Part shown: positions 6,361 to 14,756 of the stretch, one piece after another
Layout: every line of letters starts with the position of its first letter
Position numbering within the stretch: position 1 is the first letter of the stretch
From: a virus
Strand: one strand, 5' to 3'
DNA: 22,070 bases
Virus record (IMG/VR): IMGVR_UViG_3300023178_000299
Coordinates: 1-22,070 of that record
Position numbers and translations under genes: made by a program
Notes under the pieces: model-generated
Databases searched by the model: none
The model's input: only the letters and a program-made list of their open reading frames with translations
Told to the model about the DNA's origin: nothing

Positions 6361-6389
6361 AGGGGGGGCTTACGCTCCCCTTTTTTTTT
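6361..6389 (+). terminator. Rho-independent terminator of the fibre/lysis transcript
   Basis: A GC-rich hairpin with a G7 arm (6362-6368), short loop CTTACG and CTCCCC arm (6375-6380) is followed directly by nine T (6381-6389). It lies 23 nt after the holin stop and is followed by the gene-free control region. Confidence 0.9.
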
Positions 6390-6513
6390 GCTTATATAGA
6401 TATATATAGATATATATATATAAGGGGGTATATAATACCCCTATTTATATATATATATAGATTATAAAAAAATATATATAAGGGGATTGTGCAAAACTTG
6501 TTTTCAACAAAAG

Positions 6514-12095: not shown

Positions 12096-12337
12096 CACCA
12101 GAAAACGCAGTACATAAAGCCACCCAGATCTTTGATGATCCTACGATCTCAGATAAGGATAAGGTAGATGACCTGCTCTGGATTGATGCCCAGATCTACC
12201 AGAACTTGGGCAGTGCTAGTTTAGGATCAGACAAAGACAAAGCCAAAAGAGCATCTGCATGTATATACCGTTTCATCAAGGCTATTGATACTGAGAAAGG
12301 GCAGAGGTTTCTAAACGCATTAGGCTACACCAGATGA
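12092..12337 (+). CDS. Hypothetical acidic helical protein (81 aa)
   Basis: Coupled on both sides by ATGA overlaps. The product has an all-helical look: ENAVHKATQIFDDP, DKVDDLLWIDAQIYQNLG, KAKRASACIYRFIKAIDTEKG. No recognised motif. It directly precedes and is translationally coupled to the PP-loop gene, so it may be a small partner or merely a passenger. Confidence 0.65.
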   Translation: MTPENAVHKATQIFDDPTISDKDKVDDLLWIDAQIYQNLGSASLGSDKDKAKRASACIYRFIKAIDTEKGQRFLNALGYTR

Positions 12338-13179
12338 TTACAGTAAATAGTTTATCTGGGGGTAAGACCTCATCCTATATCGCTAAGCATTACCCTGCTG
12401 ATTACGATGTGTTTTCCCTCGTAAGGGTAGAGGATGAGAACTGTAAGTTCCCAGATGAGAAAATACGCAAAGAGGTAGAGGATAGACTACAAGCTCCTTT
12501 TGTCGGTACGGTAGAGGATGATACTATTATCTACACCATGTTAGATCTGGAGCAGTTTATAGGCAGGGAGATCTCATGGGTAACTGGGATCACATTTGAT
12601 GAGGTGGTGCGTAGTAAGGGTGGGTGGCTACCTAACATGCTACACCGCTACTGCACCACTAACCTAAAGCTCATGCCTATATTCCACTGGTGGCATAGTA
12701 ACATAGGAGAGCCAGTTGAGATGCGTATAGGCTTTAGAGCTAACGAGCAGAGGAGAGCCAAAAAGATGATAGAGCGTAAAAACGAGAACGGTCTACTAGA
12801 GATTAAAGCCACAGTAGAGAAACACTCTAACGGCAGAAACAAGTGGGAAACATTTGAGTGGCAGTCTCCCTCCTTTCCTCTGATCCTAGACAATGTGTAC
12901 AAGGATAATGTAGAGGAGTATTGGAAAGATAAACCAGTACGCTTTGCATGGATGAATAATTGTGTAGGGTGCTTTCATAGGAATGAGATCCTGCTCAAGA
13001 AAATGTTTGAAAAACACCCTAACAAAATGCAGTGGTTTTCTGACCAAGAGATAGGCAGAGGAGGTAAGGGTACATGGAAAAACGGTATAACCTATGAAGC
13101 TATTAAAGAATACAAATTGCAGTTTGAGCTATTTGATGATGAATTTGATGAGTGCGATAGTGGCTACTGTGGATTATAA
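12334..13179 (+). CDS. PP-loop ATPase / PAPS-reductase-like adenine nucleotide alpha-hydrolase (281 aa)
   Basis: The N-terminal strand-loop ITVNSLSGGKTSSYIA has the PP-loop SGGKTS at about 8-13. It is followed by the nucleotide-binding fold, RYCTTNLK at about 105-112 (like the C-T-x-x-LK segment of PAPS reductases), and NCVGCFHRN at about 209-217 with Cys210 and Cys213. Further Cys274 and Cys279 lie at the C-terminus. Such enzymes adenylate a substrate through an AMP or PAPS intermediate; members include PAPS reductase, tRNA sulfurtransferases and the phosphorothioation protein DndC. In a phage a DNA or nucleotide modification role is possible. No partner modification gene was recognised in the window. 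Confidence 0.75.
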   Translation: MITVNSLSGGKTSSYIAKHYPADYDVFSLVRVEDENCKFPDEKIRKEVEDRLQAPFVGTVEDDTIIYTMLDLEQFIGREISWVTGITFDEVVRSKGGWLPNMLHRYCTTNLKLMPIFHWWHSNIGEPVEMRIGFRANEQRRAKKMIERKNENGLLEIKATVEKHSNGRNKWETFEWQSPSFPLILDNVYKDNVEEYWKDKPVRFAWMNNCVGCFHRNEILLKKMFEKHPNKMQWFSDQEIGRGGKGTWKNGITYEAIKEYKLQFELFDDEFDECDSGYCGL

Positions 13180-13181
13180 CA

Positions 13182-13264
13182 AGGATGAATGGAGGCATAT
13201 AAATTAGGGGCGGTATTACTAGGCTAATTTATGTAGCAAGGGGGGTTCAACTCCCCCCCATCCT
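13182..13264 (+). ncRNA. Predicted three-way-junction, tRNA-like RNA structure
   Basis: Three nested helices pair without conflict. P1: AGGATG (13182-13187) with CATCCT (13259-13264). P2: 13197-13207 with 13224-13234, nine Watson-Crick pairs plus a T-G and an A-T extension. P3: six G-C pairs (13240-13245 with 13253-13258) closing a 7-nt loop TTCAACT, which fits the tRNA T-loop consensus TTCRANY. P1 and P3 abut with no linker, as acceptor and T arms do in tRNA, giving 12 stacked bp. There is no D arm, anticodon arm or CCA end. It sits 2 nt after a stop and 18 nt before the next ATG. Confidence 0.4.
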
Positions 13265-13269
13265 ACAAA

Positions 13270-13282
13270 ACACCAAAGAGAA
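13270..13282 (+). promoter_or_regulatory. Leader repeat ACACCAAAGAGAA before the 13283 gene
   Basis: The repeat including the start (ACACCAAAGAGAAATGAAA, 13270-13288) matches 18 of 19 bases at 13549-13567. A third, shorter copy precedes the SSB-like gene at 7689. Confidence 0.45.
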
Positions 13283-13504
13283 ATGAAATATTTTACAGAA
13301 AAAGAAGTGCAAGATTTTAAGGATGGTAGTATAAACTACCCTTATATAGTGGTAGAAAAAGAACAACACGAGGTAATTGAGGTCAGCGAAATAGTTAGTA
13401 TTGGTGGTATGGCTAATAATAACGGCATACCTACTGAAATTGAAATACAAGTACACACTAAAAACGAACCGACTAAACACCTTAAATATCGTTTAGTTCA
13501 GTAG
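13283..13504 (+). CDS. Hypothetical protein (73 aa), possible recently acquired gene (moron-like)
   Basis: It has its own 5' leader, the structured RNA candidate just upstream, and is bounded by near-identical ACACCAAAGAGA direct repeats. Its base composition is more A-rich than its neighbours (AAA, GAA and TTT codons instead of the prevalent GAG and CTA). The product is beta-rich and charged (YPYIVVEKEQHEVIEVSEIVSIGG...TEIEIQVHTKN), with no Cys or membrane segment. The family is not recognised. Flanking repeats plus different composition suggest insertion into an existing operon. Confidence 0.65.
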   Translation: MKYFTEKEVQDFKDGSINYPYIVVEKEQHEVIEVSEIVSIGGMANNNGIPTEIEIQVHTKNEPTKHLKYRLVQ

Positions 13505-13548
13505 TATTGTGCCTAATACCTTTTATAAAGCATATAAGAAAACCTTTA

Positions 13549-13561
13549 ACACCAAAGAGAG
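13549..13561 (+). promoter_or_regulatory. Leader repeat ACACCAAAGAGAG before the exonuclease gene
   Basis: Second copy of the 19-base leader/start repeat (ACACCAAAGAGAGATGAAA at 13549-13567). See the entry at 13270. Confidence 0.45.
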
Positions 13562-14374
13562 ATGAAAGAGAAAACAATTACACTACTTAATGGAGAGCAG
13601 TGGGATCAAGCCGAGATCGTAGAGAGAGCTTACGAGGATGAGTTCTACTATGGTTATCTGGGCAAGAACGCCCTCAGTAGCTCTAACATCAAAAAGATCT
13701 TAGACAGTCCTAAGACCTACTACAACCTCATGCAATATGGGGATGAGACAAATAGCCAAGCTCTAAGAGATGGCAGACTGATCCACATGATGGTACTAGA
13801 ACCCCATAGGATCAATGAGCTTGTATTTGCAGATGTCTCTACTAAGACCACCAAAAAGTGGAAAGAGATGAGTGCAGAATACCCTAACCACATCCTATAC
13901 ACAGAGAAAGAGAAAGCTAATGCAGAACGCCTAGCAGATGCCATCCTCAAGAATGAGACTGCCAGAGGTCTACTATCAGACAGTAAGTTTGAGGTAGCCC
14001 AAGTGGATCACATAGAGGGGTATGCCTTTAGAGCTAAAGCTGACATACTCAAAAACAATGGAGGCATAGTAGATCTGAAAACCACTAGCGACCTCCGCAA
14101 TTTTGTGTACTCCAGTAGAAATAAGTGGCACTACGATGTACAAGTGTACATTTACTGTCAGCTATTCAACTGCGATTACTCAGACTTTCAGTTCCTAGTC
14201 ATTGACAAAGCCTCATGCGATATAGGGGTGTACACCTGCTCCCCAGAGTTCTACAACAAGGGGGAGAGCAAGGTGTTATATGCCCTGCAACAATATGTAG
14301 ACTTTTTTGAGGGTAAATCCCCAGAGGAGGTGCAAGAGATGCTACATGATTACACCATAATAGGAGAGCTATGA
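13562..14374 (+). CDS. RecE-like PD-(D/E)XK exonuclease (DUF3799-type) (270 aa)
   Basis: The core of a PD-(D/E)XK exonuclease of the RecE/'PDDEXK-like' class is visible: G71-R-L-I-H at about 71-75 with Glu80 (the first acidic motif), FRAKADILKNNGGIVDLKTT at about 156-175 with catalytic Asp161, Asp171 and Lys173, then the strand and helix WHYDVQVYIYCQLF (about 189-202) with the conserved Gln194. N-terminal residues (ALSSSNIKKILDSPKTYY) are the usual substrate/fold helix. Such enzymes degrade 5' ends for single-strand annealing recombination, normally with a RecT/Beta partner; I did not find a RecT-type protein here. It starts with the leader repeat described separately. Confidence 0.8.
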   Translation: MKEKTITLLNGEQWDQAEIVERAYEDEFYYGYLGKNALSSSNIKKILDSPKTYYNLMQYGDETNSQALRDGRLIHMMVLEPHRINELVFADVSTKTTKKWKEMSAEYPNHILYTEKEKANAERLADAILKNETARGLLSDSKFEVAQVDHIEGYAFRAKADILKNNGGIVDLKTTSDLRNFVYSSRNKWHYDVQVYIYCQLFNCDYSDFQFLVIDKASCDIGVYTCSPEFYNKGESKVLYALQQYVDFFEGKSPEEVQEMLHDYTIIGEL

Positions 14375-14724: not shown

Positions 14725-14725
14725 A

Positions 14726-14756
14726 GGGGGGTGTACTACACATCCCCCTTTTTTTT
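14726..14756 (+). terminator. Rho-independent terminator ending the early module
   Basis: GGGGGGTGT (14726-14734) pairs with ACATCCCCC (14740-14748) over nine positions, including one G-T pair, around loop ACTAC. Eight T follow (14749-14756). It separates the early genes from the packaging genes. Confidence 0.9.

Follow-up and report, generated by a model that had tools for sequence, protein, structure and literature searches.

The short interval between a PAPS-reductase-like gene and the next reading frame of a metagenomic phage raises the question of whether it encodes an RNA and, if so, of what kind. An initial annotation, made from the sequence alone, had proposed a three-way-junction RNA with a tRNA-like acceptor/T-arm stack in a gene leader. 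The locus lies within IMG/VR record IMGVR_UViG_3300023178_000299, whose positions 1 to 22,070 were analyzed and are hereafter called the window. Its relevant features, with the basis for each, are as follows.

12334–13179, + strand: upstream gene, PAPS-reductase-like (phrog_424) (gene call, family match)
13182–13264, + strand: complete tRNA-like three-way-junction RNA element (fold, covariation, covariance model score of 104.9 bits)
13182–13187, + strand: P1 5′ strand, AGGATG, acceptor-like and identical in every member (fold, alignment, covariation)
13188–13194, + strand: linker AATGGAG, invariant, in a D-loop-like position and containing GG (alignment)
13195–13207, + strand: P2 5′ strand (fold, pair count)
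13208–13223, + strand: P2 terminal loop, beginning GGGCGG (GGGGGG in 3 records) (alignment)
13224–13237, + strand: P2 3′ strand, with a single bulged A at 13235 (fold, pair count)
13240–13245, + strand: 5′ strand of P3, the T-arm-like helix, GGGGGG (fold, covariation)
13246–13252, + strand: T-loop-like TTCAACT, which fits TTCRANY and is invariant (alignment)
13253–13258, + strand: P3 3′ strand, CCCCCC (fold, covariation)
13259–13264, + strand: P1 3′ strand, CATCCT (fold, covariation)
13265–13269, + strand: invariant 3′ flank ACAAA, a discriminator position followed by CAA rather than CCA, near the right end of the element (alignment, insertion junctions)
13283–13504, + strand: downstream 73-aa gene of no known family (its relatives without the element)

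The element and both flanking genes are thus all on the + strand. The stop codon of the PAPS-reductase-like gene, which ends at 13179, lies 2 nt 5′ of P1, and 18 nt separate position 13264 from the ATG at 13283, as originally counted.

A three-way-junction RNA supported by covariation

The minimum free energy fold of the window sequence is exactly the three-way junction (−30.6 kcal/mol, z −2.5). The positions first assigned to P1, P3, and the T-loop proved correct, and P1 and P3 indeed join without a linker on the 3′ side to give 12 stacked base pairs in total. Because the z-score is only about −2.5 and 3 of 200 shuffles are as low in energy, the window sequence by itself provides moderate support. 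The junction is settled by its homologues, which comprise 13 distinct sequences. Among these, pairing is complete in the 298 pair cells where both positions carry a letter, compared to only 44–61% in slid-alignment controls. Compensatory double changes, which the initial annotation had proposed to look for in related phages, are present at five pairs where 1.4 would be expected, a number reached by 0 of 500 shuffles.

The three helices contribute differently to this signal. P1 is invariant in sequence across the family and, since it does not vary, has no covariation support of its own. In P3, one pair has changed on both sides, from G-C to A-U, in L141/L151. The helix P2 had been described as 9 contiguous base pairs plus 2; its presence stands, but it is better drawn as 13 base pairs with one bulged A. 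Counted in this manner, 13 of 13 pairs are kept in 13 of 13 sequences, including L141/L151 and the window, where the sequence of P2 is much changed and its pairing is intact. Overall, P2 has diverged down to 50% identity with pairing kept, and its terminal loop ranges from 12 to 18 nt. In contrast, the core is nearly fixed. Five parts do not vary among the members of the alignment, namely P1, the linker AAUGGAG, a GCAAG segment, the T-loop, and the ACAAA after P1, and the window matches the nine other representatives outside L141/L151 at 48–49 of 49 core positions. When the window is compared with all compared members, the core is 96–100% identical, whereas P2 and its loop are 47–62% identical. 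This combination of an invariant core and a diverged but still paired P2 points to purifying selection rather than decay.

Folding is also strand-specific. In all 13 sequences the sense strand yields z-scores of −2.0 to −3.5, versus −0.3 to −1.6 for the antisense strand, and roughly one-sixth of P2 cells are G-U pairs on the sense strand that become A-C mismatches on the other. A coding role was considered and is excluded because one-base indels separate members (between L141 and L151, and in L150). We therefore regard it as virtually certain that the element is a structured RNA. The compensatory changes support the earlier suggestion of a structured noncoding or cis-regulatory RNA that is possibly a tRNA mimic.

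Resemblance to tRNA and to the tRNA-like domain of tmRNA

The stack of 6 + 6 base pairs formed by the acceptor-like P1 and the T-arm-like P3, together with the 7-nt T-loop UUCAACU, belongs to the family consensus. Nevertheless, ARAGORN called no tRNA in the window or at any scanned copy, which bears out the earlier remark that this is not a normal tRNA. A cloverleaf with a D arm and a 7-nt anticodon loop is not formed, the P2 loop being 12–18 nt in length, and a 3′ CCA is not encoded at the position where ACAAA follows P1.

Matches to the family covariance model give another view of this likeness. Beyond the family itself, most of the next-best matches are to bona fide tRNA genes, and their ends fall within 2–3 nt of the ARAGORN calls, while tRNA genes make up only about 1% of the searched sequence (an estimate from ARAGORN counts). 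Because the loci searched with the model had been picked by a T-arm pattern, this result is support rather than proof, and the likeness rests mainly on the T-arm and acceptor.

A search of Rfam found no family at its gathering cut-off in the window, and the best sub-threshold matches are chance-like. Thus, this check, also suggested at the outset, places the element in no Rfam family. The T-arm segment of the Rfam tmRNA model matches positions 13241–13257 (13 bits, E 8.7e-4 over 151 bases), but the tmRNA and tmRNA_permuted models reach 13.1 and 8.4–9.6 bits, respectively, relative to a cut-off of 47. Weak matches other than tmRNA include Tymo_tRNA-like (E 0.11–1.5) and mascRNA (E 4.5), which likewise fall far below their cut-offs. 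The tymovirus tRNA-like structure and mascRNA do share with our element a T-loop hairpin stacked on an acceptor-like helix, but they are eukaryotic or RNA-virus RNAs of different topology.

The arrangement P1, no D stem, P2, T-arm, P1 that typifies the tRNA-like domain (TLD) of tmRNA is present by both fold and covariation, and the layout of the element equals that domain minus the message part. However, the G3-U70 alanine identity pair is absent (the third P1 pair is G-C in all members). The conserved D-loop motif of tmRNA is also lacking, as the 7-nt linker AAUGGAG has only UGGA in common with it. Because G3-U70, the D-loop motif, and CCA are missing, we have not filed the element as a tmRNA.

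Our best reading is that the element is close in design to the TLD-only tmRNA of Mycobacterium phage DS6A (PMC4131195, PMC11915505). Both would be phage-borne RNAs with an acceptor and T-arm and with no message part, D stem, or anticodon. Our element differs in carrying no G3-U70, no tmRNA D-loop motif, and no encoded CCA. Moreover, it has a 7-nt linker and a 13-bp P2, falls below the cut-offs of the Rfam tmRNA models, and is a mobile, between-gene element found in many diverse phages. PMC4131195, citing Mao et al. 2009, states that tmRNA is strongly inhibited by a similar molecule, which may titrate SmpB. The DS6A RNA, the closest described phage RNA, is a single case. The family described here contributes a strongly covarying RNA of tRNA-like form from phages whose hosts are likely Bacteroidota, a group in which, to our knowledge, little is known of phage RNA biology.

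Distribution and movement at the 3′ end of an HNH gene

Homologues were found by scanning IMG/VR DNA for a pattern comprising the T-arm and the P1 3′ strand and then applying the covariance model. In total, 20 phage records contain the element, each with exactly one copy, at scores of 95–116 bits, and 13 of the sequences are distinct. These 20 include the window and its two near-identical records, and all members are metagenomic virus contigs. One further candidate, L099:285-368 (24.7 bits), was judged a false positive because it probably lies within coding sequence. GenBank phages and plasmids yielded no copy, and blastn detected it in no named phage of the GenBank collection. A pattern scan of 84,980 bacterial genomes returned only three matches, which by inspection are tRNA-type chance matches, and a pattern for the T-loop variant TTCRAAT, covering that variant only, gave zero. 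The hosts are probably Bacteroidota, since among GenBank phages only Riemerella phage RAP44, whose host belongs to the Bacteroidota, has an HNH gene related to these.

The element does not follow the genes that surround it in the window. Among relatives of the PAPS-reductase gene (80 loci), the 73-aa gene (8 loci), the exonuclease gene (24 loci), and the terminase gene (15 loci), it is present only in the window's own population. Outside that population, every copy whose left flank is present directly follows the final Ile-His codons of a small nuclease gene (Pfam HNH). The window copy instead adjoins the PAPS-reductase gene, with no HNH gene nearby. Therefore, the term "gene leader" holds insofar as the element precedes the 73-aa gene in the window, but it is too narrow because the element does not stay with the downstream gene and elsewhere lies within the 3′ end of the HNH gene.

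At that site the HNH gene reads EQRMNGG(R/A) into the element and terminates within P2, whereas in element-free relatives the start of the next gene mostly overlaps the HNH stop (ATGA). Comparisons with close element-free relatives reveal clean insertions of about 95 nt. For example, L130 carries 97 nt that are extra relative to L171, with flanks that are 92% (left) and 91% (right) identical, and the pairs L147/L157 and L148/L017 likewise represent filled and empty sites with both flanks homologous. In most copies a remnant of the HNH tail follows the element, and in several this matches the tail of an element-free relative. In L147 versus L157, the last HNH codons appear to have been exchanged together with the element. 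L139 and L177 are about 98% identical on both sides of an exchanged cassette of about 300 nt that includes the element and one small gene. Viewed across L139:1-1986, this swap pairs the element plus its small gene in L139 with another small gene in L177.

A tree of HNH genes, built without the last 33 nt of the gene, requires seven changes of state for the element, of which at least six are forced by well supported branches, and a single clade of element carriers is rejected (AU p 1.5e-7). In addition, the element is 91–96% identical between phages whose HNH genes are only 66–75% identical. From the filled and empty sites, the tree, and this disparity in identity, we conclude that a single site, the HNH 3′ end, has repeatedly acquired or lost the element. 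These comparisons make it very probable that the element is a horizontally mobile unit. The filled and empty sites also offer a clean natural system for studying the transfer of a 95-nt RNA gene from phage to phage.

Two other interpretations of the insertion were rejected: a self-splicing or bypassed insert, because its removal would not restore the HNH frame in L130 and L141, whose tails are in another frame or contain a stop, and an attachment-site remnant, because a matching bacterial gene was not found. The mobility recalls known systems only in part. PeSLs (Arbiol 2010 and Comeau 2014, as cited in PMC4503421) are mobile regulatory cassettes of T4-like phages, and they share with our element a small, intergenic, structured form, differing gene junctions, and modular gene exchange. 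Whereas PeSLs are promoter and terminator stem-loops, our element has a tRNA-like junction under covariation and lacks a terminator T run, and a sigma-70 scan detected no promoter in it. Free-standing phage homing endonucleases and introns also involve insertion at one site beside an HNH gene, but here the insert is inside the 3′ end of the HNH gene itself, does not splice, and in the window has no HNH gene nearby.

Possible functions and competing explanations

Taking these observations together, our best overall reading, whose chances of being right we consider evenly balanced, is that the element is a mobile, transcribed tRNA-like RNA that perhaps serves as a decoy. The RNA would be made in the sense of the surrounding co-directional phage genes as part of a polycistronic mRNA. 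It copies the outer half of a tRNA through its 12-bp acceptor/T-arm stack, canonical T-loop, and GG-bearing linker, with the long P2 hairpin standing where an anticodon arm would be. It very probably passes between phages as a small module of about 95 nt, which can be present or absent at the one HNH 3′-end site.

RNase P, TruB, and TrmA recognize a 12-bp stack capped by a UUCRANY loop, and for this reason processing or modification by host enzymes seems likely. By this analogy, we lean toward the view that the element is recognized as tRNA-like by host enzymes. RNase P, perhaps RNase Z, and T-loop modifying enzymes might read the T-loop and acceptor stack, and the RNA could be cut out. In the least certain step, the freed RNA would act in trans as a decoy for tRNA or the tmRNA TLD, for example by tying up SmpB or other proteins that bind tRNA or by diverting defenses directed at tRNAs. 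This trans-acting role is a tentative proposal that we hold to be possible but on balance unlikely. If true, phage tRNA mimicry would become directly testable. A more specific version, that a tRNA-shaped RNA of about 90 nt is a mobile unit inserted site-specifically after Ile-His and a mimic of tRNA or the TLD, seems doubtful to us. In that case the HNH nuclease might assist insertion, and the RNA might counter ribosome rescue or tRNA-targeting immunity. One such defense, Cas12a3 immunity, reads the tRNA acceptor stem, T-arm, and CCA tail (PMC12851939).

The strongest competing explanation is action in cis within the operon transcript, as an intercistronic processing or stability signal (tRNA punctuation) that affects only its neighbors, through cleavage or protection of the mRNA and by breaking the HNH stop-start coupling. 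Every copy lies between genes or at the end of one, in the sense orientation, and insertion separates the stop and start codons that overlap at empty sites. A 12-bp stack with a T-loop is, moreover, a known minimal RNase P substrate. However, a pure processing site would allow P1 to vary with compensation, whereas P1, the linker, GCAAG, and ACAAA are invariant. The flanking genes vary by phage, and hence there is no fixed target gene. We judge this explanation unlikely on balance, and less probable than our overall reading.

A further possibility, which we consider improbable, is that the element acts at the DNA level, either as a very small transposon-like or recombination unit with terminal repeats and hairpins or as an attachment site for a recombinase, with the RNA fold as a by-product. 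Its presence or absence at one codon boundary across several HNH lineages would fit, as would the terminal inverted repeats AGGATG/CATCCT just inside ACAA direct repeats and the occasional joint transfer of the element and the gene after it in one cassette (L139 versus L177, 98% flanks). Yet folding is strand-specific, with P2 G-U pairs kept on the sense strand, and the element is never inverted relative to transcription. Nor does a target-site duplication account for the empty sites. Each record holds a single copy, and a Y1 transposase, which an IS200/IS605-type non-autonomous element would call for and which was the only recombinase sought, did not exceed the cut-off in any of the 20 records, many of which are fragments.

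It is far less probable that the locus is a degenerate phage tRNA, or the remnant of a tRNA or tmRNA gene left by integration. The T-loop and acceptor stack without a D arm or anticodon had suggested the degenerate-tRNA option initially, but the core is under strong purifying selection in diverged phages with all pairs kept, no tRNA is called, and the bacterial genomes yielded only the three chance matches. Finally, the fallback that only a lone terminator-like hairpin (P3) is real, with flanking complementarity arising by chance, could draw on the strong G-C content of P3 and the modest z-score of the window fold, but it is refuted by the covariation of P2 in all members, no T run follows P3, and a terminator scan skips P3, leaving this idea with almost no remaining probability.

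Several additional observations concern the surrounding genes. A 20-nt leader, AACACCAAAGAGA(A/G)ATGAAA, precedes both the 73-aa gene (13269–13288) and the exonuclease gene (13548–13567), and L139 has an almost identical copy following its element cassette. The repeat could mark a recombination junction, or it could be a leader common to these start sites. In L085, L087, and L090, relatives of the 73-aa gene adjoin, on the upstream side of the match, TAACG/GTTAG repeats that resemble integron attC sites, and for this reason the 73-aa gene may travel as a cassette. An ATG inside P2 of L144 (L144:6678-6863) is in frame with the downstream gene and could provide an N-terminal extension; by eye, it is missing in L134 and L147. 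Lastly, two strong G-C hairpins followed by T runs are good candidates for the real intrinsic terminators of the phage: one at 14725–14749 of the window, identified by the terminator scan, and another at about 6362–6390, noted by eye only.
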